64,000 nucleotides of DNA, from NCBI RefSeq assembly GCF_030848575.1, contig NZ_JAVDDX010000004.1, positions 1-64,000 of the forward strand. The letters run 5' to 3'. The notes below the pieces were generated by a model. The model had not been told where the DNA came from and ran no database searches. It saw only the letters and a program-made list of their open reading frames with translations. Below, piece after piece: positions 44,374 through 59,610 of this stretch. A program made the translations under genes and the position numbers. Position 1 is the first letter of the stretch. Every line of letters begins with the position of its first letter. This DNA comes from Haloarcula sp. H-GB4. Its GTDB lineage: Archaea; Halobacteriota; Halobacteria; Halobacteriales; Haloarculaceae.

Positions 44374-44595
44374 CTAAGTGCTACTCTCCGTAGTTTCAGC
44401 AACTCCTTTATATGCGATATAGCTGAGAAACCCACCCGTATAGGCGACTGCAAGAAGGACTGAAGGTAACGTGCGGCCAAGGAAAGTGATGATAATGATC
44501 ACGATCGGCCCTAAAATAAGAAGCGCGTCGAATACGGAGTCATCTGCGCCAGCCGCGAGGAGCGGGCCAATGAACGGAATTTGTTTGAGTCGCAT
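44374..44595 (-). CDS. Small membrane protein coupled to TrkH
   Basis: This 73-residue protein has two helices (VFDALLILGPIVIIIITFLG and SVLLAVAYTGGFLSYIAY). Its ATG overlaps the TAA of the upstream trkH by one base (TAATG), so it is translated with TrkH and may be an accessory subunit of that transporter. I know no named family. This is a good candidate for a Trk-associated micropeptide, by context only. Confidence 0.65.
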   Translation of the reverse strand: MRLKQIPFIGPLLAAGADDSVFDALLILGPIVIIIITFLGRTLPSVLLAVAYTGGFLSYIAYKGVAETTESST

Positions 44596-46208
44596 TAGTC
44601 ATAGCCCTCCATAGAGACGAATAAACTCCGCAGGAGCACTAGAACCGGGATTATCTCAAGTCGTCCGATCCACATGTTGAATAAGAACATGACCTTCGTG
44701 ACCGTCGGCATCCCCGGGCCGGTGATGCCCGACGAGAGCCCAACGTTACCTTGCGCGGAGGCAACCTCAAACAGAACGTTTTCTAGAGTGTAGCCTTCTG
44801 GACCCATCGGAAGGGCGATCATAAAGACGAATGCAGCGACGCCGAGGAAAAGGATCCAGAGGAACGTGATGATAGCGGCCTCTTCAAACTCCTGCGCTGC
44901 TTCGTCATCTGATAATGTTCGATCATCCAGTCGGAATGTACGAACAGCAGTTGAAGGGTAGAATACGTCACGGATACGAAACAGAATCCCTTTTCCGAGA
45001 GTGAGCAACCGGATGAGCTTGATACCCCCGACAGTTGATCCGGCAGCTGCCCCGACGATCATCCCGAACGCGACCGTCAATTGTGCAGGCGCCGACCATC
45101 CCGGCCCGAGCGAGCCTGCAGTCTGGAACCCGGTGCAGGACGCCGCCGAGACGAACTGGAATATGGCAAATCGGAACGTCTGAAAGAGCGTTGCTGCCCG
45201 GCCATGAAGGACGATTCCAGCAACGGTCATCGTCTCTGTCTGGTAGAATCCCTGATCAAACAGTAAGGCAGTCAAAATCAACGTCCCAAGGCCGAAGAAA
45301 ATGAAGACCCACCGCGTCTGGAGGTCTCTGTAGAGGTTCCGGAGGTCTCCGCGTAGAATTAAATAATGAATCGGGAACGCAATACTCCCAAGAATCATGA
45401 TGGGGATGAGTGCGAAGTCGATGGCGACGCTGTTGTACGTGCCTATCGAATTATCCGTAATCGAAAACCCTCCGGTTGCGAGCCCCGTCATTGCATGGTT
45501 GATTGCATCCCACATCGGCATGCCAGCCAGCCACAGGAGGAGGATCGAGAAGAACGTGAACAGGAGGAAGATCCACCAGATTGTCCTGACGGTGGACACG
45601 ATACTCGGATGAATCTTCTCCGAACGCGCTTCACTTTCATAGAGCGTAAGTGACCCACTCCCCGGGCGTGCGAGAATAGCGGTCGTGAGCACGATGACTC
45701 CGACGCCACCAACCCATTCGATGAATGAACGCCACCACTGGAGCGTGTGTGGAAGCGCCGCCTCGTTATCGGTCATCGTCAGTCCCGTGCCGGTAAACCC
45801 GCTCATGCTCTCGAAGAACCCGTTGAGGGGATTCTGGAACGCAGCGAGTGTACTGAACGTCCTAGTTCCTCCGGTCGTGAACCGGGCCGGAATTTCGAGA
45901 ACTGAGGGATCAAGTCGTGCCGTCCAGGCAATAAGCAGGAATGGGACAGAGCCGAAGACTGCGACGAAGAACCACCCAGAGGCGGCGATCATCATCCCAT
46001 GCAATCGACCAGGATCATCTGCGTCCTGAAAGGCCCGCGAAAGTCCGAATCCGACTAGCAAAGGGAGCAGTCCTGAAAGGATCATTCCAGGAACAACCCA
46101 CCACTCTCGCCAGACGAGCGGAATAAGAACGGAGACGAGAATAAGACCTGCTAGCGCCTCGAGCATCCGCCCGAGGTCGCGAGCAATTGTCCCAAGACGA
46201 TTAGCCAT
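44595..46208 (-). CDS. trkH: TrkH-type K+ transporter, first copy
   Basis: A 537-residue pore subunit with the fourfold M1-P-M2 architecture. The four P-loop glycines are visible: FESMSGFTGTGLTM, HAMTGLATGGFSITD, SCTGFQTAG and ASAQGNVGLSSGITGPG. It should mediate K+ (or Na+/K+) uptake gated by a TrkA-type RCK protein. A TrkA-like gene lies 1.2 kb away (47440-48150) on the same strand, separated by a UspA pseudogene. TrkH is followed by a coupled small membrane protein. Its start is ATG 46208. Confidence 0.93.
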   Translation of the reverse strand: MANRLGTIARDLGRMLEALAGLILVSVLIPLVWREWWVVPGMILSGLLPLLVGFGLSRAFQDADDPGRLHGMMIAASGWFFVAVFGSVPFLLIAWTARLDPSVLEIPARFTTGGTRTFSTLAAFQNPLNGFFESMSGFTGTGLTMTDNEAALPHTLQWWRSFIEWVGGVGVIVLTTAILARPGSGSLTLYESEARSEKIHPSIVSTVRTIWWIFLLFTFFSILLLWLAGMPMWDAINHAMTGLATGGFSITDNSIGTYNSVAIDFALIPIMILGSIAFPIHYLILRGDLRNLYRDLQTRWVFIFFGLGTLILTALLFDQGFYQTETMTVAGIVLHGRAATLFQTFRFAIFQFVSAASCTGFQTAGSLGPGWSAPAQLTVAFGMIVGAAAGSTVGGIKLIRLLTLGKGILFRIRDVFYPSTAVRTFRLDDRTLSDDEAAQEFEEAAIITFLWILFLGVAAFVFMIALPMGPEGYTLENVLFEVASAQGNVGLSSGITGPGMPTVTKVMFLFNMWIGRLEIIPVLVLLRSLFVSMEGYD

Positions 46209-46261
46209 ACAATTTCGGTATGCTGAACGAGAACTTAAATTGGCTGATTCACGCCAAAGAG

Positions 46262-47114
46262 GTGAGCCGTTAGATTGCGCTATGGGAAATAGTTACCTGC
46301 GGGCACCGCTTTCTGGAAAAGTCTTGATGTCGAGCATATGTTATTTTCGATTTGGCCACCAAGACGGCGAGGTTCTGCTTACAAGTGTCGCCACAGTTCC
46401 CGAGCAAACGCCACTGTCGGAAGGCCGTCGGTTAATGAACAGCGAGAACTACTCGGCGAGGCAATGCAGTACGCTCCTGATGATATCCTAGTACATCAGA
46501 CTGTGACAATCGGCCATGACATCGCGAAGAGAATCAACAACGTCGCCTATCAACGCGACAGTGTCCTCGTGTTACTCGGCTGGCGAGGGCAGCGGAAACG
46601 TGTGTCCGATTATGCGCTGGGCTCAAATATCGACACCGTCGTCGAGAACGCCGAGTGTGATGTTGCTGTCGTAAAAACCGACGGGACGACAGACACCAAG
46701 CGCGTTCTCGTACCGACTGCGGGCGGTGCAAATTCGGACCTCGCAGAAATGTTTGCCGCCGCGTATACGGTTGCAGGTGCCGAAGTGACCCTGTTTCACG
46801 TCGCAACCGACGGTGATTTCGAGGCAGCTCGCTCGTTCTCGTCTACCTACTCGGAGGATATGCTCTCATCGAACTGGGGCTCTGGTCTCCTAGCTATGAA
46901 TTTTTCTCCCCACAGAGGATGTCTATTTTGCCTGGATGGGATTCCTAATTGGCCTGGTTATTTGTTCTGGCACCGGCTCACCCATCGGGCTTGCCTTCCT
47001 CAACAGGAGTGAAGGCCGAATCCACAATGAGGTTTCCTCGCCTCGTTCATTGGTTTCGGATTCGGTGCCGGAGCGATCAGATTGACTTACGCGACTGCTC
47101 TTGCAGGGATAGTG
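46262..47114 (+). pseudogene. UspA-type protein fused to membrane remnant, frameshifted
   Basis: Up to about 46430 one frame gives EVLLTSVATVPEQTPLSEG; a shift then leads to NEQRELLGEAMQYAPDDILV, VLLGWRGQRKRVSDYALGSN, ENAECDVAVVKTDGTTDTKR and VLVPTAGGANSDLAEMFAAA. This is a tandem UspA domain like that fused to the APC permease at 55420. After about 46870 the domain breaks off and other frames carry YFAWMGFLIGLVICSGTGSP and FIGFGFGAGAIRLTYATALA, pieces of membrane helices. It is a decayed, rearranged transporter-UspA gene. Exact ends are uncertain. Confidence 0.6.
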
Positions 47115-47439: not shown

Positions 47440-48150
47440 TCATAAACTGAACCCGCTCGAATTGTTCGTTTCGTGGTCCTCGTAATGTCCAAAGATATCT
47501 GTCACCGCTGGTGTTGCGCCACTGCCAGAATACACCGTGAGCAAGTCACCGGCTTCGATGCGGGTCTGTCCCCGAGGGGTAATAGGAGAATCCGAATCGG
47601 GCCGTTCAATTGCTACGACAAGTGTGTCCTCATCAAGCAGTCCTTCGTTGTCCGCTTCAACGAGGTTTAGACCGGCGATCGGTGCGTCCTCGGCGACCGT
47701 AATCTCGAACACTTCGGCAACATCGCCGACACGCATGTAATCAACAATCGATGGCCGATCCACAGACCGGAACAGTGATTCCGCGATGAGGCGCTGTGGA
47801 TTCTCCATTGTGTTGACGCCGATCTGCCTGAATAGGTTCATGTGCTCAGGGTTGTGGACGACTGAGACGATGCTAGGGATTTCAAGTTCCTGTGCGAGCA
47901 ATGAGATCATGACATTGGTCGCGTCCTGATCCGTCGTTGAGATGAGCGCATCAGCCCGGTCAGCTCCGGCATCCTCCAGCGTCTCCTTGATCGTCGCGTC
48001 CGCGTTGATGACCAGGCAGTCGAACTCAGTAGCGACTTCGTCCGCTCTCGCCGCGTCTTTTTCGATGACGACAACTTCGTTTCCAGTTCCGGTTGCGATT
48101 TCAATGAGCGGCGTTCCGATATCGCCAGCTCCGACAGTGATTATGTACAT
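47440..48150 (-). CDS. trkA: TrkA/KtrA-type RCK subunit
   Basis: The 236-residue protein has one RCK_N Rossmann domain (IITVGAGDIGTPLIEIATG, GxGxxG at residues 7-12; acidic strand end VVVIEKD) and one RCK_C domain (VFEITVAEDAPIAGLNLVEA, RIEAGDLLTVYSGSGATP). It should bind NAD(H)/ATP/ADP and gate a TrkH pore as a ring. Its closest relative in the window is 50915-51601 (nearly identical blocks such as TIKETLEDAGADRADA). Partner TrkH is probably 44595-46208. Confidence 0.92.
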   Translation of the reverse strand: MYIITVGAGDIGTPLIEIATGTGNEVVVIEKDAARADEVATEFDCLVINADATIKETLEDAGADRADALISTTDQDATNVMISLLAQELEIPSIVSVVHNPEHMNLFRQIGVNTMENPQRLIAESLFRSVDRPSIVDYMRVGDVAEVFEITVAEDAPIAGLNLVEADNEGLLDEDTLVVAIERPDSDSPITPRGQTRIEAGDLLTVYSGSGATPAVTDIFGHYEDHETNNSSGFSL

Positions 48151-48401: not shown

Positions 48402-49166
48402 TCACGATGGTGTCATCGGTTGGTTCGTATTGCCAAACGATTCTAGTGTCGACTCTGGCACGCCGTCCCGGGCGAACACGGAGATGAGATCACCAGCACG
48501 AATCTCCGTGTCACCCTTGGGCGTGATCATTTCATCTCCACGCTCAATAGCGATAACAAGCACTTCACTGCCAAGCAGCGATTGCTCGTTAGCTTCTCGT
48601 AGTGTCGTGTTGACAATAGGGGCGTCCTTGCTGACGGTCACATCAACTACTTCGGCTCCACCGGAGAGAGACACCATATCTGTCATTGCACCCTGCTTGG
48701 TTGCGCCGTCCGGCCCGAACGGCTCGTAGGGGGTGAAATATTCCTCCTGAATCAGATCCTCGTCCTCGATTTCTAGGCCGAGTTTACTGAGCTGGTGGGC
48801 TATTCGTGTGAGGTCACTCATCTCCTCGCCCACAGCCTTGATTTGCAGGTTCCCACGGCCCGTCCTGAGTTCGCGAACGTTCACGACTCCGGGAACCGTG
48901 AGTGCCTTTCTGGCGAGATTTTCCCGCTCACTCGCCGAAGTGTTACAAACGAATAGATTAGTCATGCGACTTTCACAGCGTTCGTAGTCGATGTCAGCGT
49001 GATACCCTTTGATTATGCCCACCTCTTCAAGCTGGTTGATTCGATTGCGAATGGTCCCCGGAGAGACATCCATCTCCTCGGCGACCATCGGAGCCGAGAT
49101 ATTCCGTGCATCCTCCTGCATCGCATATATAATGCGCTTGTCAATTTCGTCGAGACGACGACTCAT
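48402..49166 (-). CDS. Lrp/AsnC regulator fused to an RCK_C (TrkA-C) domain
   Basis: A 254-residue fusion. Residues 1-60 form an AsnC-type HTH (LDEIDKRIIYAMQEDARNIS, DVSPGTIRNRINQLEEVGII). Residues 65-145 resemble the Lrp/AsnC ligand-binding fold (LFVCNTSASERENLARKALT, VVNVRELRTGRGNLQIKAVG). Residues 170-245 form an RCK_C domain (EVVDVTVSKDAPIVNTTLRE, TEIRAGDLISVFARDG). RCK_C binds small ligands such as Ca2+ or c-di-AMP in other systems, so this could be a transcription factor that senses the same signal as the K+ channels. It lies upstream of, and codirectional with, trkA at 47440; a role in controlling the trk genes is inferred. Confidence 0.88.
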   Translation of the reverse strand: MSRRLDEIDKRIIYAMQEDARNISAPMVAEEMDVSPGTIRNRINQLEEVGIIKGYHADIDYERCESRMTNLFVCNTSASERENLARKALTVPGVVNVRELRTGRGNLQIKAVGEEMSDLTRIAHQLSKLGLEIEDEDLIQEEYFTPYEPFGPDGATKQGAMTDMVSLSGGAEVVDVTVSKDAPIVNTTLREANEQSLLGSEVLVIAIERGDEMITPKGDTEIRAGDLISVFARDGVPESTLESFGNTNQPMTPS

Positions 49167-49318: not shown

Positions 49319-49454
49319 CTGCGGTTGCAGATAGCGAAGGTAGATCGGTCTGTGTCACCGCGGAAACGGGTCGCGAGTACGCAACTTACTGTCCCGACCC
49401 GTTGCCAGCGCATCGAGTTTGATAGCCGCCGGTAGTTGTGTTCCGACCTACAGT

Positions 49455-49692
49455 CTGCGGGGCTGGTTTGGCGGCGACTTCCGGAATCTGTCGAATTGGA
49501 TACATGGCATCTTGAAGCGCCCGACGTTGCGGAAGCACTCATCAACGAGTCCGCACATTACGATGTGACTATGATGGGGAAACCGACGCAACGCAGCCTT
49601 CTAGAGTTCGTCACGGGTTCCCTCACTGCGAGCGTCACCGAAGAATCAGAGAATGCAGTCCTCAAGTACAGCGGAATGGTGGAGAGGGATTC
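49455..49692 (+). pseudogene. Tail of a tandem UspA protein (remnant)
   Basis: The frame LPESVELDTWHLEAPDVAEA, LINESAHYDVTMMGKPTQRS, LLEFVTGSLTASVTEESENA is nearly the same as the C-terminal 75 residues of the intact protein at 58334-59206. The first two-thirds of the gene are missing. With the remnant at 49225 it mirrors the arrangement of the intact locus at 55.4-59.2 kb. Confidence 0.65.
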
Positions 49693-50062
49693 AGTCTCGA
49701 AGCGAAGTAATCTGGTAACAATCCTGGTATCAACGAGCCCACGGTAGTGGACTGTTGCAATAGACTCGGTATGTGCGATATTCCTACAATGGCCCGATCA
49801 GGTGATCCCATTCGACGGTATATATAAGTGTTAGACTCACCGAACCATTGAATGACAGAATACCAAAATAATTCTCGAATGCTAAATATTGACCTATCTT
49901 CTTACTGTATAAGGAAATAAGGCGGTATTTTTTTAAGCAAGCGATATTTCTAGAGTCGAGAGGACAGGTCCCGTGAGAGTAGCCGAATCGTTCGAATGGC
50001 TGACTCGCCGGCCTATATCGACTGCTCAACGGAGTCAGAGACAGAGCAGCACCCGATAAAAT
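49693..50062. other. Intergenic upstream of the second K+ operon
   Basis: About 370 bases, AT-rich. A TATA-like cggtatatataagtg lies at 49815-49829 and further AT-rich blocks near 49920. It should carry the promoter of the operon starting at 50063. No gene; the long minus-strand frame across it (49784-50800) has the wrong composition. Confidence 0.45.
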
Positions 50063-50413
50063 ATGACACAATCTGAAACCAACCCGCCCAAAGATATCCC
50101 GGAGAAAATCACGACTGCACTGGAAGCCAGTAGTGACGCACGTCTCAGGGAGATTATCCATTACGCACAGCAACTCCTGCGGGAGCATCCATCGCTCACA
50201 GATGCGATCGAATCTCGCCCCGGTGAAGAGTTCGTTCGAATCGAGGACCATGGAGCGTACACGATTGTCGTCGTGGAACGACCGGAGGAAACGGGCGAAG
50301 CACGAGGCCCGTTCGCCTACAGGGTCAGGTGGGAACACGGTATCGGCGACGAAGATGGACAGTACCGGTGGCACTATCTCGGAAAAGTCTACGAAGAAAA
50401 CGAGGGTGACTGA
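50063..50413 (+). CDS. Uncharacterised protein heading a UspA-TrkA-TrkH operon
   Basis: This 116-residue acidic soluble protein starts with a helix-rich half (IPEKITTALEASSDARLREI, AQQLLREHPSLTDAIES) and ends with a beta half (VRIEDHGAYTIVVVERPEET, YRVRWEHGIGDEDGQYRWHY). The UspA gene begins one base after its stop. The operon continues with TrkA and TrkH, so it may regulate or assist K+ uptake. Family not recognised; the tail pattern YRVRW...YRWHYLGKVYEE is the most distinctive part. Confidence 0.7.
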   Translation: MTQSETNPPKDIPEKITTALEASSDARLREIIHYAQQLLREHPSLTDAIESRPGEEFVRIEDHGAYTIVVVERPEETGEARGPFAYRVRWEHGIGDEDGQYRWHYLGKVYEENEGD

Positions 50414-50414
50414 G

Positions 50415-50858
50415 ATGTCTGCGGAATTCTTCCAGCGAGTCATTGTTCCAGTCGCTAACGAAGACGACGCGAGGGCGACAACTTCTGCACTCCGCCCGTA
50501 CGTAGCAGGGTCGGACTGCACTGTTATCGCCGTCCATGTCATCGAGAAAGCCGGTGGCACGCCGGACAAAGCGTCAGTCGAACAGCGCAAATTGGCTGCG
50601 AGAGAGATATTCGCTGCCGTCACGGAGAGATTCGTTGACACGGGTGTCACACTGGAAACAGAGCTTCGGTACGGGACCGATATCGCATCGACACTCCTCG
50701 AGGCAGCACACGAACTTGACGCCAGTGCCATCGTCTTCACTCCCCGTGGGGGGAGCCGCTGGCAAAAACTGTTAGCTGGCGATGTGACGCACAATCTCAT
50801 TAACGAGAGTGACGTCCCGATTCTGGCACTCCCTGACCGAGAGGTGAGTGACGCGTGA
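50415..50858 (+). CDS. UspA-type universal stress protein
   Basis: The 147-residue single UspA domain starts MSAEFFQRVIVPVANEDDAR and shows the nucleotide-binding loop TPRGGSRWQKLLAGDVTHNL, close to the ATP-binding G-2x-G-9x-G(S/T) pattern. It is a near paralogue of 57686-58123 (shared IEKAGGxPDKASVEQR and RYGTD). UspA proteins can bind ATP and modulate transporters. It lies between the hypothetical gene and TrkA in one operon. The start is ATG 50415; the open frame extends further upstream but overlaps the previous gene. Confidence 0.85.
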   Translation: MSAEFFQRVIVPVANEDDARATTSALRPYVAGSDCTVIAVHVIEKAGGTPDKASVEQRKLAAREIFAAVTERFVDTGVTLETELRYGTDIASTLLEAAHELDASAIVFTPRGGSRWQKLLAGDVTHNLINESDVPILALPDREVSDA

Positions 50859-50914: not shown

Positions 50915-51601
50915 ATGTACATCATCATCGTCGGAGCAGGCGATATCGGCTCACCGCTGATCAATATCGCCACTCGAACTGGAAACGAGGTTGTCGTTAT
51001 CGAGAAAGATACAGGAAAAGCCGAGGAGATAGCAAGCGAGTTCGACTGCCTGGTCATCAACGCGGACGTGACGATCAAGGAGACGTTGGAGGATGCCGGA
51101 GCGGATCGAGCCGACGCGATCATCTCGACAACTGATCAGGACGCGACGAACGTGATGGTCTGTCTGCTTTCCAAAGAGTTCGAGATTCCGGCAATCACGT
51201 CAGTCGTTCACGATGCAGCGCATATGAACCTCTTTCGTCAGATCGAGGTGAACACGGTCGAGAATCCACAGCAACTCATCGCCGAGCATCTCTACCGTGC
51301 GGTCGCCAGACCGGCTATCGTCGATTACATGCGTATCGGCGAGGACGCAGAAGTGTTCGAAATCACGGTCAGGGACGATGCGCCAATCGCTGGCAAAACA
51401 CTTACCGAAGCCGGTGAGGAGGGCATCCTTCCGAACGATGTCTTGATCGTCGCCATCGGTCGTGAGGGCGAGGACAGGCCACTGACACCGCGTGGGAACA
51501 CCCGAATCCAAACGAACGACCTGTTAACCGTCTACTCCGCAGCTGGTGCGAACCCAGATCTCACCGACATCTTCGGCCATTACGAGGACCAAACAGCGTG
51601 A
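50915..51601 (+). CDS. trkA: TrkA/KtrA-type RCK subunit
   Basis: This 228-residue protein has RCK_N with VGAGDIGSPLINIATRTGNE and RCK_C with VFEITVRDDAPIAGKTLTEA and RIQTNDLLTVYSAAGANP. It is about three-quarters identical by eye to the TrkA at 47440, so the two are recent duplicates. Its stop overlaps the GTG start of the following trkH (GTGA, 51598-51601), a strict partner arrangement: this subunit should gate that TrkH. Confidence 0.92.
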   Translation: MYIIIVGAGDIGSPLINIATRTGNEVVVIEKDTGKAEEIASEFDCLVINADVTIKETLEDAGADRADAIISTTDQDATNVMVCLLSKEFEIPAITSVVHDAAHMNLFRQIEVNTVENPQQLIAEHLYRAVARPAIVDYMRIGEDAEVFEITVRDDAPIAGKTLTEAGEEGILPNDVLIVAIGREGEDRPLTPRGNTRIQTNDLLTVYSAAGANPDLTDIFGHYEDQTA

Positions 51602-53247
51602 TCACGGGAGAATCCAAATCAATGTCCAATTCATCTGTCGGTCGCCTTGACTTCCTGACAGCCTCGAAAACGGTCTGTAGAGACGTTGGTGCCTTGCAGG
51701 TACTCATCGGCGGGCTGATGTTAGTCCCCATGCTTGTCTCGCTGGTCTATCAGGAGTGGTACAGCGGACTGTCGTTTCTAATCGGTGCAGGGATCACTTC
51801 GCTTGCTGGCGGGGCAGCGTACAAACTGTGCGAAGATGCCCCTGAACCGAAGCGTCACCACGCGATGATCGTCGCGGCCCTCGGGTGGCTCGCTACGGCG
51901 GCGTTCGGTGCCCTCCCGTTCGTAATCGCGGCCTACATCACGCCACCGGCAGTACTCGAATCCTTCGTGCCAGCGAGTGCGAGCTATCAGTCAAGCCTGC
52001 TCAACTTCCAGAACCCGCTCCATGCCTTCTTCGAGAGCATGAGTGGGTACACAACGACAGGGCTGACGATGAGTGTTCACGAACCGTCGGTGGGCCACGG
52101 CTTCCTCTGGTACCGCTCACAGATGCAGTGGATCGGTGGCGCGGGGATGATCGTCCTCTCGCTGGCAATTTTGCGTCAGCCACACGGGACTGCGGGACTC
52201 TCGCTGTATCAATCAGAAGCACGAAACGAGAAACTTCGGCCGAGCATCGTGGGTACGGCGCGTGCAATCTGGAAGATTTACGTCGGCGTCACCGCACTAG
52301 TTGCCCTCTATCTGGCAGCAGCCACGTTCCTCGTTACCCCGAGTTACGGTATCGAGCCGACGATTTTCGACGCGATAAACCACGCGATGACTGGCCAGTC
52401 CACCGGCGGGTTCAGCACACTCGACAATTCTATCGCCGGCTACGACTCATACGCGATGGAGCTCGTTCACATCCCCGCGATGATTACCGGGGCAATTTCG
52501 ATTCCAGTCTACTATGGGATGCTCTCCGAGCGAGATATCCGAGAATTCACACGCGACCCACAGGTCAGAGTGTTGTTTGGCTCCTTCGTTATCGGTGTAG
52601 TCGGCCTGACGGCGTTTCTCGCTCGATGGGTCGGGGTGCCTTACAATGGTGAGCCGCTCGCATACATCGGGCGTGTAGCGACGAGTCAGGCATTCCGTGA
52701 TGGTCTTTTCCAGTTTATTAGCGCACAGACGACGACGGGGTGGCAGACGTCTGCAATCGGTGACTGGAACAACGGCGCGGTCATGTTCATCGTCTTCGGT
52801 GCGATGTTACTCGGCGGTTGTGCCGGAGCAACGGTCGGCGGGATCAAACTGCTGCGTGGCTACATTATCGCTCGTGGCATCAGTTGGGAGGTCACTCGCG
52901 TGTTCCTCCCCGACCACGCTATCGACGACCTCCGGATTGGGCAGCGGATACTCAAAACCGACGAAGCAAACACCGAGATCAGCGCTGCAACGACGTTCGC
53001 GTTCACGTACCTCGTCTTGCTCGTCCTCTCGCTGTTCGTCCTGTTGGCAGTGCTTCCGACGGATTTCACGCTCGCCGATGGGATTTTCGAAGTAGCGACG
53101 GCACAGGGAACTGTCGGCCTATCGTCGGGGATCACTGGTCCAGGCATGCCGGTCATCGCTGAGGTCCTGTTGATCCTCCAGATGTGGATGGGACGGCTCG
53201 AAATTATCCCCGTCCTCGTCCTGATTAACGCGATCTTCAGGCGGTGA
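51598..53247 (+). CDS. trkH: TrkH-type K+ transporter, second copy
   Basis: A pore subunit of up to 549 residues. GTG 51598 overlaps the trkA stop; ATG 51622 (MSNSSVGRLDFLTASK) is an alternative start. The filter loops are FESMSGYTTTGLTM, HAMTGQSTGGFSTLD, SAQTTTGWQTSA and TAQGTVGLSSGITGPG, each with its glycine. It is clearly related to the copy at 44595 (shared SEARNEKLRPSIV-like block and tail WMGRLEIIPVLVL). It is co-transcribed with TrkA, UspA and the hypothetical gene at 50063. Confidence 0.93.
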   Translation: MITGESKSMSNSSVGRLDFLTASKTVCRDVGALQVLIGGLMLVPMLVSLVYQEWYSGLSFLIGAGITSLAGGAAYKLCEDAPEPKRHHAMIVAALGWLATAAFGALPFVIAAYITPPAVLESFVPASASYQSSLLNFQNPLHAFFESMSGYTTTGLTMSVHEPSVGHGFLWYRSQMQWIGGAGMIVLSLAILRQPHGTAGLSLYQSEARNEKLRPSIVGTARAIWKIYVGVTALVALYLAAATFLVTPSYGIEPTIFDAINHAMTGQSTGGFSTLDNSIAGYDSYAMELVHIPAMITGAISIPVYYGMLSERDIREFTRDPQVRVLFGSFVIGVVGLTAFLARWVGVPYNGEPLAYIGRVATSQAFRDGLFQFISAQTTTGWQTSAIGDWNNGAVMFIVFGAMLLGGCAGATVGGIKLLRGYIIARGISWEVTRVFLPDHAIDDLRIGQRILKTDEANTEISAATTFAFTYLVLLVLSLFVLLAVLPTDFTLADGIFEVATAQGTVGLSSGITGPGMPVIAEVLLILQMWMGRLEIIPVLVLINAIFRR

Positions 53248-53365: not shown

Positions 53366-54031
53366 ATGTACGTAATCATCATCGGCGCAGGCCGCACCGG
53401 AAGCACCGTTATCAACCTCGCAACGCAGGACGACCATGAGGTGGTCGTCATCGAACGCGATACAGAATTGGCCGAAGAGGTGAGTGCAACCTACGACTGT
53501 ATGGTTATCAACGCTGACGCAGCATCGAAAGATATCCTGCTCGAAGCTGGCATCGAGGAGGCCGACGCACTTATTTCGACCACGGAGACTGACTCGGTAA
53601 ACCTCATGGTGACCATGTTTGGGAAGCAGTATGGGGTCGAGACGCTCGTAAGTTCGATCAACGACCCCGCCCACATGGAACTATTCGAGGACCTCGGCGT
53701 GAATATCGTCGAAAGTCCGCACCGTCTCAACGGTCAATATCTCTACCGGGCCGTCCAGCACCCGGGGATTCAGGATTTCCTGCCCATTGCTGGTCAAGCT
53801 GAAATCTTCGAGATGGCAGTCAGTTCGGGCGCTCCGATTGATGGCCTCGATTTAATCGAAGCTGATAACAACGATCTGTTGCCCGAAGAGACGATAATCG
53901 TCGCCATCGTCCGAGATAGCGAATTGCTCATTCCGCAGGGGGAAAGCGAGATTCGTGCTGGTGACACCGTCACCGTTTTCGCTAAAAATGGGGCGACGAG
54001 TCGGGTTACGGATGTGTTCAGGGGTTCATAA
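53366..54031 (+). CDS. TrkA-type RCK protein
   Basis: The 221-residue protein has RCK_N (IIGAGRTGSTVINLATQDDH; GxGxxG with Arg in the loop) and RCK_C (IFEMAVSSGAPIDGLDLIEA, EIRAGDTVTVFAKNG). It is more distant from the two short TrkA copies and could serve the TrkH before it (118-base gap) as a second gating subunit or another channel. A tandem UspA gene follows after 2 bases, so it is also linked to nucleotide-binding stress proteins. Confidence 0.9.
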   Translation: MYVIIIGAGRTGSTVINLATQDDHEVVVIERDTELAEEVSATYDCMVINADAASKDILLEAGIEEADALISTTETDSVNLMVTMFGKQYGVETLVSSINDPAHMELFEDLGVNIVESPHRLNGQYLYRAVQHPGIQDFLPIAGQAEIFEMAVSSGAPIDGLDLIEADNNDLLPEETIIVAIVRDSELLIPQGESEIRAGDTVTVFAKNGATSRVTDVFRGS

Positions 54032-54033
54032 AG

Positions 54034-55182
54034 ATGTCCGATAACTCCGAGCCAGCCAGCGTTCGAATCACCGTCGCAGAACGATCTTCGGGTTCGGATA
54101 ATGAACCGTATCTTCGTAGCGGGCCGCCTATTCGATCTCCAGGGTATAGAGTTATCGTTCCCATTACTGAGACGCTGCTTGATAGCTATACAGGGATCAA
54201 CGTCCGCCGGTTCCTACAGACAGCGGTGGCACTGGCTGCTGATAACGGCGGCCGGGTGCTCTTGCTTGGCATCGAGACGGTGACAGACGAAGCGGAACTG
54301 GGCCATGCTCGAGAGTATATCCGGACAGAAGAAGAGAGCCAGGCCGATATGAACCCCACCATCGAGACACTCGAGAACAGACGGACACAGTTGGCGGAGA
54401 TGAGTACTCTAGCGCAGGAACTCACGCCGAGTGTTCCGGTCAGTGCAGCCGTCAGAACTGTGACTGACCTGACTAGGGGTATTCTTGATGTCATAGCTGA
54501 TGAGAGTGAAACGGCTGTCCTGCTGCCACGCGGGACCGGCCTCAATCAGGGCTGGTTGCTAAAACGAAGTACAATTGACGCGGTCTTGACGGACGCTGAG
54601 TGCGATGTGTTCGTCGAAAAGATGGGGGCCAGAGGAGGAGAGAACGCACTGTACGTACCAAGCGTTGATGAGCATACTGTCGCACCGCTCGCCGAATCGG
54701 AAGCCGAAACGATAAACTCGATACTATTACCTGTCGGGGCAGGCCCACACTCAGCCCTCGCTGCGGAAGCAGCGCGCGCGGTGGCACGTGCCACAGGTGC
54801 ATCTGTGACCGTGTTCCATGTGGTACCACCTGAATCATCTGCTGAGGCGAGAAGCGACGGTGAAGATTTGCTAAAGTTCGCTGAATACGTGCTCGGTTCC
54901 GACGTAACGATTACAACAACGATCAGGGAGGCTGCTGATACCGCTGATGCAATTATAACGGAAGCGGAGTCTCATGATGCCGTATCAATAGGAGCGCCGG
55001 AACAGAAATCACAACTAGAAACGTTAGTCTATGGGTCTGTACAAGAGACGCTCTCTGAGCTCGATGAGCTGACTATTCTCATGTCTCGTGATTCTAACCA
55101 GACCATGCGGTCTCTCTACTACCGATGGAAACGAGGAATTGAGGCCGAAGGTGGCGAGAGCGAGAGCGAGTCCAGCAAGTGA
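54034..55182 (+). CDS. Tandem UspA-domain protein
   Basis: This 382-residue protein has an acidic leader, a first UspA domain (about 38-200: YRVIVPITETLLDSYTGINV; variant loop LLPRGTGLNQGWLLKRSTID) and a second (about 225-355: SILLPVGAGPHSALAAEAAR, GAPEQKSQLETLVYGSVQET). The tail is charged. It starts 2 bases after the RCK gene at 53366, so the pair is an operon, suggesting joint control of a transporter. Confidence 0.85.
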   Translation: MSDNSEPASVRITVAERSSGSDNEPYLRSGPPIRSPGYRVIVPITETLLDSYTGINVRRFLQTAVALAADNGGRVLLLGIETVTDEAELGHAREYIRTEEESQADMNPTIETLENRRTQLAEMSTLAQELTPSVPVSAAVRTVTDLTRGILDVIADESETAVLLPRGTGLNQGWLLKRSTIDAVLTDAECDVFVEKMGARGGENALYVPSVDEHTVAPLAESEAETINSILLPVGAGPHSALAAEAARAVARATGASVTVFHVVPPESSAEARSDGEDLLKFAEYVLGSDVTITTTIREAADTADAIITEAESHDAVSIGAPEQKSQLETLVYGSVQETLSELDELTILMSRDSNQTMRSLYYRWKRGIEAEGGESESESSK

Positions 55183-55419: not shown

Positions 55420-57693
55420 CTACGATTCGAGGCGTCGAACGATGGCTTGGCGGATCGACATCGCGGATTCTTCAGGCCCACGGGCCATGACGACAGTCTG
55501 ATCCGTCTGTTCACCAATCGTCTCGGGCAGCGAGCCGAAGACAGCCTGTGACACCGCTCCCGTGCGGGTCGCTCCCACACAGATTGTATCGTATCCTGTA
55601 GCTGCATCGAGAATCCCCCTTTCGATATCCTCGGCCACCTCGATACGGCTCTCGTACTGCGTCTCTTCGAGACCAGTCCGTTCAACGAACTCTTCGATGA
55701 GCGCCTCACCTCGCTCCCGTGGGGAAAGGCCTTCGTCGTCTTCGCCTGGCTCTTGAACGTTGAACAGCGTTAACGTGGCTTCCTCGTCGGCCGCCTTGAC
55801 AAACTCTTTGGCCCGACGAGCAGCCACTGGTGCGTGTGGCCCCTCACCGGCTAAGACCATGATTTCGCCCGTCGCGCGTCCACCCTCAGGACCGAGTTTC
55901 ACGAGCGTCGCATCACACGATGCACGACCGATGACAGGGTCGATCGTGGAGCCGAGAACGTGTTCTCGGCGGCTTCGCTTGCCTTTCCAGCCCAAGAGAA
56001 CGTGGTCAGCGTCTTCTTCCTCAATAACGTCCAGAATCGCAGAGCCAGCGTTGCGACCAACGATGGCGCGCGTTCGTAGCCCGACATCGAGGTCGTCAGC
56101 GATGTCCCGTGCAGAGTCCAGCAGTTCCTGCTGGCGTTCGACTCGTGTCTCCTCGAATGTGAGGTCCTGTTCCAGTGAAGTCTGCTGTGGGACTTCGATG
56201 ATGTTCACCGCGACAACCTCGGCCGTTTCGCTATCGTGTGCGTGTGCGCTCGCCGCTGCCATCCGGAGAAGGTCCCGTTCCGTTTCGGGATTTGCCACGG
56301 GAACAACAACCCGATACCGTCCCTGTCCGTCAGCTACTGTGGTCGGTTCTGGCGCGATGGCCTCCCCAACTAGACTCTGGCTGAGTGCTCGGTCGCGGGC
56401 GTACACAAAGTACCAGAGAATCCCAAAGGCGACGATGACACCGCCGATGGCCTGCACGATGAGGTTCATCTGGAGAAGAATGGCGATAGAGGCGACAAAA
56501 CCGAGAATCGGGACAATTGGGTACAGCACGCTCGGAATCTGGAACGCCGGGTCGTAGGCGTCAGGATCGGCACGACGGAGGACGATGACGGCGATATGGA
56601 CGAGCGCGTACGTGACGAGGTACATGAAGCTCGCCACTTCTGCGAGTGTCCCGATGCCGACCCCGATTGCGATGAGCACAAGCGTGATAATACCGGTCGC
56701 GGAGATGGCACGATATGGCGTCCGGAACCGGTCGTGGACCTCATTGAGCCAGTTGATGAGAATCTTGTCCCGACCCATGGCGAAGTTCACGCGGGCCGCC
56801 GAGAGGATACTCGCGTTCGCACTCGACACTGTCGCTAGAACGGCTCCCACGATCATCGCTAACGCTCCGATTGGCCCCATGATCTCCGTCGCTACGTCGG
56901 CGACGGGTATCTGAGAGTCTGCAAGCGCCTCGATTGAGAGCGTCCCGGTCGAGACGAACATCACCCCGACGTACATCAGCGTCGGCGTCACGACGGCCGC
57001 AATCATCGCCAGCGGAAGATTGCGACTCGGGTTCTTGATCTCCTCGGCGCTGGTCGCAATCACTTCGAAGCCGATGAAGGTCACGTAGACGGTCCCGATC
57101 GTCGCTGCAACGGCCGGCCAGCCCTCTGGTGGGAGGAACGTTCCGATAGTTGGCCCACTCGCGGCTCCCAGCCCAAGGAACGCCACGATGAGGCCGACCA
57201 GAGTGAGGACGATGACGTTCTGGAGTGCCCCGGTCTCTTTGACGCCGTAGTAATTAACACCGGTCAGCAGTGCTGCCATGACGAGTGCTGCCACAGTTAT
57301 TCCGATGTCACCCCATCCGGCTAGTAACCCGATGTACTGTCCAAGCCCGGGGAGCAGATATTGACCGAAACCGATCATGTAGAACGCACTGGCGAAAGTC
57401 AGCCCGGCCCACATCCCCCAGCCGACGATACTGCCGAAGAATGGACCGAGCGCGCGGTTAACGTAATAGTAGCTTCCACCGGCTTTGGGCATCCCCGTGG
57501 CTAATTCCGACAGTGAAACAGCAGCGAGCAGCGATACTAAGCCGCCAGCAAAGAAGGAAATCATGCTCGCGGGTCCTGCCTGCTCGGCAGCGATACTCGG
57601 GAGGACGAATATCCCGGCACCGATCATCGTCCCAAGGCCAATCGTGTACGCTTCGAGAAAGCCGAGGTCGCGTGCGAGTTCTTGATCAGTCAT
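55420..57693 (-). CDS. APC-family amino-acid permease fused to two UspA domains
   Basis: A 757-residue fusion. Residues 1-440 form an APC transporter with about 12 helices (FLEAYTIGLGTMIGAGIFVL, AGGLVSLLAAVSLSELATGM, PKAGGSYYYVNRALG). Residues about 470-610 and 615-745 are two UspA domains (VVVPVANPETERDLLRMAAA; GWKGKRSRREHVLGSTIDP; GATRTGAVSQAVFGSLPETI). ATG 57693 (MTDQELARDLG) overlaps the stop of an upstream UspA gene by 8 bases. The soluble half should sense ATP or another nucleotide and gate uptake. The substrate is unknown; a cation-amine role is possible since the neighbours are K+ transporters. Confidence 0.9.
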   Translation of the reverse strand: MTDQELARDLGFLEAYTIGLGTMIGAGIFVLPSIAAEQAGPASMISFFAGGLVSLLAAVSLSELATGMPKAGGSYYYVNRALGPFFGSIVGWGMWAGLTFASAFYMIGFGQYLLPGLGQYIGLLAGWGDIGITVAALVMAALLTGVNYYGVKETGALQNVIVLTLVGLIVAFLGLGAASGPTIGTFLPPEGWPAVAATIGTVYVTFIGFEVIATSAEEIKNPSRNLPLAMIAAVVTPTLMYVGVMFVSTGTLSIEALADSQIPVADVATEIMGPIGALAMIVGAVLATVSSANASILSAARVNFAMGRDKILINWLNEVHDRFRTPYRAISATGIITLVLIAIGVGIGTLAEVASFMYLVTYALVHIAVIVLRRADPDAYDPAFQIPSVLYPIVPILGFVASIAILLQMNLIVQAIGGVIVAFGILWYFVYARDRALSQSLVGEAIAPEPTTVADGQGRYRVVVPVANPETERDLLRMAAASAHAHDSETAEVVAVNIIEVPQQTSLEQDLTFEETRVERQQELLDSARDIADDLDVGLRTRAIVGRNAGSAILDVIEEEDADHVLLGWKGKRSRREHVLGSTIDPVIGRASCDATLVKLGPEGGRATGEIMVLAGEGPHAPVAARRAKEFVKAADEEATLTLFNVQEPGEDDEGLSPRERGEALIEEFVERTGLEETQYESRIEVAEDIERGILDAATGYDTICVGATRTGAVSQAVFGSLPETIGEQTDQTVVMARGPEESAMSIRQAIVRRLES

Positions 57694-58123
57694 TGTTAGA
57701 TTCAGGTAGTGTAATAACGGGTATATCGCTCTCAGAGACGAGTGACAGTCCCACGTCACCGGTCAGCAGGCGAACCCACCGGTTGCCACCTCGTGGAGTG
57801 AAAACAATCGCGCTCGCGTCGATTTCATCTGCGGTTTCAATAATCGTCTCTGCAACGTCAGTGCCATACCGGATTTCGGTCGTGAGCGTGCGGTCGGTAT
57901 CGGCCATCTCGTCACGAGCAACGCTGAAAATTTTGGATGCGTAATCCTCTCGCTGCTCGACTGACGCTTTGTCCGGGGCGCCACCCGCCTTCTCGATGAC
58001 GTTAATAACGGTTACATCTCCTCCCGCCGACTCTACATATGGTCGCAGCGCTCGCATGGTCGATTCTGCGTCTTCCGGTGACGCAACAGGTACCAGCGCG
58101 TGTCTGAACAGCGACTCCGGCAT
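57686..58123 (-). CDS. UspA-type universal stress protein
   Basis: The 145-residue single UspA domain starts MPESLFRHALVPVASPEDAE and has the loop TPRGGNRWVRLLTGDVGLSL. It is a near paralogue of 50415-50858. Its last codons overlap the start of the APC-UspA gene (ATG 57693), so the two are translated together and may bind each other. The region to 58334 is the divergent promoter. Confidence 0.85.
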   Translation of the reverse strand: MPESLFRHALVPVASPEDAESTMRALRPYVESAGGDVTVINVIEKAGGAPDKASVEQREDYASKIFSVARDEMADTDRTLTTEIRYGTDVAETIIETADEIDASAIVFTPRGGNRWVRLLTGDVGLSLVSESDIPVITLPESNND

Positions 58124-58333
58124 ACTATCCCCTCCGAAGCCGGCTGTCGGAGTATTGATGTCGCTGATATCCCGCGGTCGTAGTGAGAATCATAGTAACT
58201 AGTCTCACGGACTGTATATGAATTATTTGTCTTTGCCGCTATCCATTGGTCATCCAACTATTGCACGGTCGATTTGCTACGGAATGCGGAATCAGCACCT
58301 GCGTTTAATACTGATGGGCCACCACTCGCTTAC

Positions 58334-59206
58334 ATGAGTCATGATGAGGGTAGTCTCCGAGAGTTTCTAGAGCGGTCCGAGACTCCTGATTCGCCACCCC
58401 GTATTCTCTACCCGATATTCAGTTCCCACGACAACTTCACGTTCGAGACAGCGATGAATATCGCTGAGGGTGTCGAGGGCGAACTACTCGTCCTTGATTT
58501 ACTCACCGACAACAGCCTCCGTAGCGCTGAGGTGACATCAGTTGGCCGAAAATTACTGCAGGCACATCTAGACGAGGACCACACTGTCGACGCTCATTTA
58601 ATCGTCGAAGAGACAGACAGTCCACTCTCGACTGCGATTACCGTCGCACAGCAACGGAACGTCCAGCTCGTCGTGTTCGACGAACACACGCCCGAGTTGC
58701 TGGGCGAAGGGCTTCGCGGTGACGCGGCCGACCAGATGCGAAAAAAAGCAGCATGTGACGTAGTATCAGTCACGCATCCCCTGAGTGAGACAAGTATCTC
58801 TTCGGTGCTCGTCCCACTTGCTGGTGGAGAACATTCTGGTCTCGCAGTCGTCGTCGGCGGAGCGCTGGCAGCAGGCGCGAACGCTGTTGTCGAGCTCTTT
58901 CATGTAACACAGGACAAAGATGAGACCGAGGCCGCACAGGCCACGGAACTGTTCGACACGGCACGGGCACGGCTCCCCGAGTCGGTCGAACTGGATACGC
59001 ACCATCTTGAAGCGCCTGACGCAGCGGAGGCAATCATCGATGAGTCTGCCCACTACGACGTAACTGTAATAGGCAAACCAACTCAGAGCCGTCTCATAGA
59101 ATTTATTACTGGCTCGGTAACCAAATCCGTAACCGAAGCTTCAGAAAACGCGGTTCTTACAGTCCAGCGTGGCGATGACGATGGGTTCAGTTTTGAGGGA
59201 CGCTAA
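58334..59206 (+). CDS. Tandem UspA-domain protein
   Basis: A 290-residue protein starting MSHDEGSLREFLERSETPDS, with two UspA-like domains (about 20-145 with ILYPIFSSHDNFTFETAMNI; about 160-290 with SVLVPLAGGEHSGLAVVVGG and GKPTQSRLIEFITGSVTKSV). Transcribed divergently from the UspA/APC-UspA pair. Its tail is duplicated as a remnant at 49455. Its stop overlaps the end of the convergent gene at 59203 by four bases. Confidence 0.85.
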   Translation: MSHDEGSLREFLERSETPDSPPRILYPIFSSHDNFTFETAMNIAEGVEGELLVLDLLTDNSLRSAEVTSVGRKLLQAHLDEDHTVDAHLIVEETDSPLSTAITVAQQRNVQLVVFDEHTPELLGEGLRGDAADQMRKKAACDVVSVTHPLSETSISSVLVPLAGGEHSGLAVVVGGALAAGANAVVELFHVTQDKDETEAAQATELFDTARARLPESVELDTHHLEAPDAAEAIIDESAHYDVTVIGKPTQSRLIEFITGSVTKSVTEASENAVLTVQRGDDDGFSFEGR

Positions 59207-59466: not shown

Positions 59467-59610
59467 TGGTTATGGATACATAAGCGCAGATAAAAAGGCT
59501 ATGTTGAATGCGTATTCCCATCTATTTTAGGACAGGATTGCTGATTCCCTTGAGTCTACGGGCAGTCCAAGTCCAAAGCCGTGAGGTAGATTCGTCCCGG
59601 TGTATTGGCA

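Follow-up and report, generated by a model that had tools for sequence, protein, structure and literature searches.

A gene in a potassium island of Haloarcula sp. H-GB4 encodes an Lrp/AsnC protein with a C-terminal RCK_C domain, which is probably a regulator of the Trh2 type that controls the transport of cations and amino acids, acting as an Lrp-type oligomer on phased operator arrays and tuned by RCK_C. We computed the domains, genomic linkage, operator motif, phasing and site positions, and from these we infer binding by the fusion protein, DNA wrapping and the role of RCK_C. The window is the whole stretch of DNA analyzed, 64,000 nt of contig NZ_JAVDDX010000004.1 on the forward strand. 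Haloarchaea depend on potassium, yet titles and abstract openings in one open-access library revealed no transcription factor that controls their Trk uptake through defined operators. The arrays also supply exact DNA for testing in a tractable group.

A Trh2-type fusion within a potassium island

The fusion gene (48402–49166, minus strand) encodes 254 amino acids and was delineated by its open reading frame, Pfam matches, conservation and fold. Since the domain fusion is kept over 121 loci, the reading frame is not a chance one. A sequence-only reading had described an AsnC helix-turn-helix (HTH), an Lrp-type middle domain and a C-terminal RCK_C without RCK_N, and this description is borne out. 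Pfam and conservation place an AsnC-type HTH at amino acids 5–53 (49008–49154, minus strand), with matches to HTH_24 (amino acids 5–53, E 4e-10) and HTH_AsnC-type (PF13404, E 2e-8, 34.2 bits, cut-off 27); its TIRNRI recognition-helix motif is nearly invariant across the 121 loci. The RCK_C/TrkA_C domain at amino acids 164–246 (48429–48677, minus strand) was recognized by Pfam, PDB sequence search and fold. As the Pfam TrkA_C match (amino acids 173–233, E 5e-11) scores 42.7 bits, above the cut-off of 27, the RCK_C identity stands, and Pfam gave no match in the fusion to TrkA_N (RCK_N), the nucleotide-binding domain of TrkA gating proteins.

The middle domain (amino acids 67–147; 48726–48968, minus strand) is RAM-like by fold match only. 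PF01037, the Lrp RAM model, is absent from the Pfam matches of the protein. An AlphaFold2 model built from 17 sequences is of middling quality (mean pLDDT 65.7, pTM 0.35), but its RAM-like and RCK_C domains both match known folds. Amino acids 67–147 of the model match the stand-alone RAM structures 2djw (Z 12.3, rmsd 2.2) and 2e1a (Z 11.4, rmsd 1.3), identifying a diverged form of the RAM domain of Lrp/AsnC (FFRP) regulators, and amino acids 164–246 match the RCK_C of TrkA TM1088B (3jxo, Z 11.6, rmsd 1.6). A PDB sequence search matched the N-terminal part of the fusion to Lrp proteins of archaea, and its C-terminal part to the RCK_C domains of TrkA TM1088B, CpaA and MthK. The protein therefore has the make-up of a Trh2-type regulator: HTH, RAM-like domain and TrkA_C, without TrkA_N.

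Gene coordinates and Pfam likewise confirm that the fusion gene lies inside a K+ island, upstream of and codirectional with a trkA gene. This gene, trkA1 (47440–48150, minus strand; RCK_N plus RCK_C), is separated from the fusion gene by 251 bp, and trkH1 (44595–46208) lies beyond, all three on the minus strand. Two more trkH genes and several trkA genes lie to the right of the fusion gene. On the plus strand, orf116 (50063–50413), taken from the open reading frame list and without a Pfam match, is followed by genes that Pfam identifies as USP (50415–50858, its start chosen inside the longer frame 50133–50858), trkA2 (50915–51601), trkH2 (51598–53247), trkA3 (53366–54031) and a double-USP protein (54034–55182). 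An APC permease fused to USP domains (55420–57759, minus strand, start uncertain) was assigned by Pfam and PDB search, and to its right are more USP genes, the third trkH and a two-unit trkA. We considered whether the APC-USP gene might encode a KimA-type K+ permease and set this aside, as no KimA-named entry is among the 60 PDB matches listed; the best matches are amino-acid permeases, such as 6f34/5oqt.

Two frames in the island may be remnants. A small one that precedes the fusion gene (49436–49747) resembles by eye the C-terminal half of another frame, the USP gene at 58274–59206, and looks like a degenerate copy, and the USP-like frame 46338–47012 covers only profile positions 60–141, with the first part of the domain missing. 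DNA counterparts of orf116 follow arrays in other Haloarcula loci.

Distribution of the fusion and its linkage to transporter genes

Of the 242 genomes of the class, 151 have a match at E<=1e-48. In a draw of 294 genomes from the phylum, 35 match at E<=1e-40; reading these rows by hand gave 28 with the full fusion and 7 with the Lrp part only. The single fusion genome outside the class (G259) encodes a protein with 42% identity, and its locus (G259:C2:1-20000) holds divergent Usp and permease genes along with the fusion and a three-box array (scores 15.7, 9.9 and 8.0). The gene that comes next encodes a D12-class adenine methyltransferase, and lateral transfer is possible.

Haloarcula sp. H-GB4 itself carries an 89% identical paralog of the fusion (G000:C3:8264-9025), which lies close to a different trkA. 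At that locus (G000:C3:3000-14500), a strong array (18.1, 6.7 and 7.1) lies just downstream of the fusion gene and precedes an orf116-like stretch, a placement that differs from that of the window copy. The same genome encodes two Lrp-only relatives, 47% (G000:C2:366926-367387) and 44% (G000:C3:390881-391324) identical; the matches of both stop where RCK_C would start, and such proteins may represent the stock that gained RCK_C. In a tree of RCK_C domains, for which 58 of 190 were kept after dereplication, the AU test did not reject a single origin for the RCK_C of the fusions (p 0.63), a weak result from few columns.

Trk, APC-permease and USP genes are strongly over-represented around the fusion. 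We examined 120 neighborhoods of approximately 10 kb, comprising the listed class matches in rank order down to E ~8e-76 and including the second fusion of this genome. As controls we took 40 shifted windows, among them one (L176) that itself holds Trk and USP genes. TrkA (at least 200 bits) was found at 46/120 fusion loci versus 0/40 controls, TrkH (at least 500) at 33/120 versus 0/40, APC (at least 300) at 54/120 versus 1/40 and USP (at least 60) at 53/120 versus 3/40. Of twenty further neighboring genes, mostly from loci without Trk, APC or USP neighbors, two encode Na+/H+ antiporters, two Na+/Ca2+ exchangers and four glycosyltransferases, and several are unrelated.

A palindromic motif in three-turn arrays

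De novo motif search upstream of fusion genes yielded a palindrome with the consensus tATTTTCGATTCGAAAATa. The fit, which allowed one site per region, used 104 of the 121 upstream regions after near-copies were removed, and its log-likelihood was 254 versus 88–117 in 8 shuffled sets. Sites scoring at least 12 occur in 53/121 upstream regions versus 2.8% when shuffled, which leaves over half of these loci without a site of this strength upstream of the fusion. No direct-repeat operators were found above shuffles.

Boxes recur at a fixed phase that was outside the motif fit. A second box scoring at least 4 lies at 30 bp in 62/236 flanks and at 31 bp in 29/236, against a background of ~0.9% averaged over offsets, and weaker extra boxes occur at 60–62 bp. 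With this 30–31 bp (three-turn) spacing, we counted 88 arrays in the 120 loci versus 4 in their shuffles, and 3 in the 40 control windows. The arrays precede the fusion gene itself or USP, APC, TrkA or TrkH genes, with 17 of the 91 counted arrays (the window's 3 included) having no named gene start nearby. When the data were divided into four train/test splits, which shared one seed drawn from all data, held-out arrays numbered 16, 5, 13 and 12 versus shuffle means of 0.3, 1, 5.3 and 1.7, with 6, 6, 12 and 2 arrays in the 40 control windows; the held-out signal is thus positive but uneven. Genome-wide, the best or joint-best consensus match fell at the fusion locus in 6/6 genomes, a result favored by their selection for strong sites, and 2/7 fusion-less genomes of the same family had a two-mismatch match and none a better one. 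Since most extra sites in the six genomes lack a phased partner and are in or near unrelated genes, we do not claim a genome-wide regulon from single sites; the best exception is a permease/TrkA locus, where a site of 20.7 has a partner of 4.5 at 31 bp (L248).

In the window, where single sites are degenerate (14 matches scoring at least 11 versus 5.9 expected from shuffles), 3 arrays were seen versus 0–2 in each of ten window shuffles (mean 0.4). At trkH1, the motif scan and comparison with relatives predict boxes at 46211–46229 (score 10.3) and 46273–46291 (13.3), 62 bp apart on either side of a putative TATA-like TTTAAG (46234–46239, minus strand) read 26–31 bp before the start codon; these boxes are conserved in Haloarcula relatives and the DNA further upstream is not. 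The motif scan also predicts a three-box array at 49870–49949 (boxes at 49870, 49900 and 49931, scoring 15.9, 6.5 and 9.3) upstream of orf116-USP-trkA2-trkH2-trkA3, of which orf116 is the first gene past the array. The sites before this operon are conserved among Haloarcula relatives and overlap a TATA-like stretch. Weaker two-box arrays lie at 58244–58293 (6.3 and 9.9), near divergent USP genes, and at 59468–59517 (9.5 and 7.5). The earlier suggestion that the fusion targets trk promoters is therefore upheld in part, as sites are predicted at two island trk promoters, but no site was found in the window at the promoter of trkA1 (best score 4.0) or of the fusion gene itself (about 2).

Which protein binds these sites? 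The residue at position 37, where the recognition helix begins, associates with a half-site base: A37 occurs with T in 40/46 half-sites and G37 with another base in 34/38 (p 7e-13 from uncorrected raw counts, in 45 of 50 array-bearing fusions with identical HTHs merged). We set this covariation aside as proof of binding, as it amounts to four independent contrasts on the tree and the sign test is not significant, and another Lrp could bind the sites instead. Known Lrp proteins bind at a spacing of two or three turns and are able to wrap DNA (PMC2995911), and the phased arrays fit oligomeric binding of this type. We envision that fusion dimers bind palindromes of ~17–19 bp through the AsnC HTH, with the consensus in part of the family and degenerate forms in Haloarcula, and that two or three dimers, 30–31 bp apart on one DNA face, would form an Lrp-type wrapped complex. 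Such complexes would lie over Trk, USP and APC promoters; in many species they would also cover the regulator gene's own promoter. RCK_C, TrkA-like and without RCK_N, may provide a second dimer interface whose state follows the ionic status of the cell, so that transporter transcription would track that status. The predicted sites lie on both sides of the trkH1 TATA-like element and overlap a TATA-like stretch before orf116, so we lean toward the fusion being a repressor of trkH1 and the orf116 operon. Counter to this, Trh2 was predicted to be a conditional activator (PMC4236453). Against the regulator model as a whole, trh2 deletion had no effect on growth curves under the conditions used in that study.

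The role of RCK_C and known regulators

If RCK_C tunes the regulator, what does it sense? The sequence-only reading put forward as a candidate the small ligand that gates K+ channels. Nucleotide (NAD or ATP) binding in RCK proteins belongs to RCK_N, and since the fusion lacks that part we set NAD/ATP sensing aside. Cyclic di-AMP is a plausible ligand, because this genome contains a diadenylate cyclase gene, of which there is one. That RCK_C is a c-di-AMP receptor, which would make the fusion an archaeal equivalent of bacterial BusR and link c-di-AMP to the uptake of K+, is nevertheless doubtful. Its fold is near those of c-di-AMP-bound KhtT (Z 10.5, rmsd 2.3) and CpaA (Z 9.4), Foldseek returned BusR (E 2e-5), the CpaA RCK_C was matched by sequence (E 0.003), and c-di-AMP is present in Haloferax volcanii, with a suggested osmotic role (PMC6741144). 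However, TrkA and MthK match the same fold, so that fold does not identify a ligand; a sequence search with the RCK_C profile missed BusR at E<=1, and the BusR pocket residues, as given in the published account (PMC8517857), could not be placed residue by residue on the fusion RCK_C.

It is also possible, although somewhat doubtful, that RCK_C senses no small molecule, functioning as a dimer module that heterodimerizes with TrkA gating proteins, which would tether the regulator to the transporter, or only stabilizes the oligomer. RCK_C domains dimerize, as in BusR (PMC8517857), that of the fusion is 38–43% identical to TrkA RCK_C domains of the same genome, and trkA genes tend to accompany fusions, but many fusion loci have no trkA nearby. 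An amino-acid-responsive Lrp that acts via RAM, with APC permeases as main targets and the K+ gene link secondary, would account for the APC genes near 54 of the 120 fusions and for the retained RAM fold; we consider it unlikely, given that RAM is too diverged to appear among Pfam matches, that the RAM of Trh2 was judged likely non-functional in 2014 (PMC4236453) and that the best island sites of the window are at trk genes. What RCK_C binds, whether c-di-AMP, K+ or a protein partner, also matters for the question of which targets c-di-AMP has in archaea.

Both the architecture and the proposed link to K+ have been published before. Trh2 (VNG1285G), an FFRP with TrkA-C from Halobacterium salinarum NRC-1, was described in 2014 with a proposal of K+/NAD+ sensing (PMC4236453), and HTH+TrkA_C Lrps occur in 5/6 haloarchaeal families, with the function of the domain unknown (PMC8229911). 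Judged from domain descriptions, haloarchaeal Trh2 shares the HTH, RAM-like and TrkA-C make-up of the fusion. Two Haloferax mediterranei Lrps have the same domain order and are only catalogued in PMC8229911. New by computation are the distribution, the transporter linkage, the phased motif arrays and the window sites; as far as literature searches show, the target and operator evidence is an addition. Neither trk/APC linkage nor phased arrays appear in the sections of PMC4236453 consulted, which call the Lrp-TrkA-C fusion restricted to halobacteriaceae, whereas here one genome of another class has it.

The predicted arrays resemble the sites of Ss-LrpB, for which three dimers bind phased palindromes on one DNA face and wrap ~100 bp, although the portions of that account consulted mention no RCK_C domain (PMC2995911). 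BusR of Streptococcus is, like the fusion, a winged HTH regulator with a C-terminal RCK_C, and its paired DNA sites three turns apart and osmolyte physiology resemble the predicted setting of the fusion (PMC8517857). BusR differs in having a GntR-type HTH and a coiled-coil ruler where the fusion has an AsnC HTH and RAM (no GntR-type winged HTH is among the Pfam matches listed), and c-di-AMP has been shown to act on BusR (PMC8517857), whereas for the fusion it is a candidate ligand. An improbable idea is that the fusion is an independently assembled archaeal counterpart of BusR, in which Lrp-RCK_C reads c-di-AMP and, by way of three-turn arrays, sets how haloarchaea transcribe their Trk, APC-USP and other cation transporter genes. 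If so, haloarchaeal c-di-AMP would have a direct transcriptional receptor.
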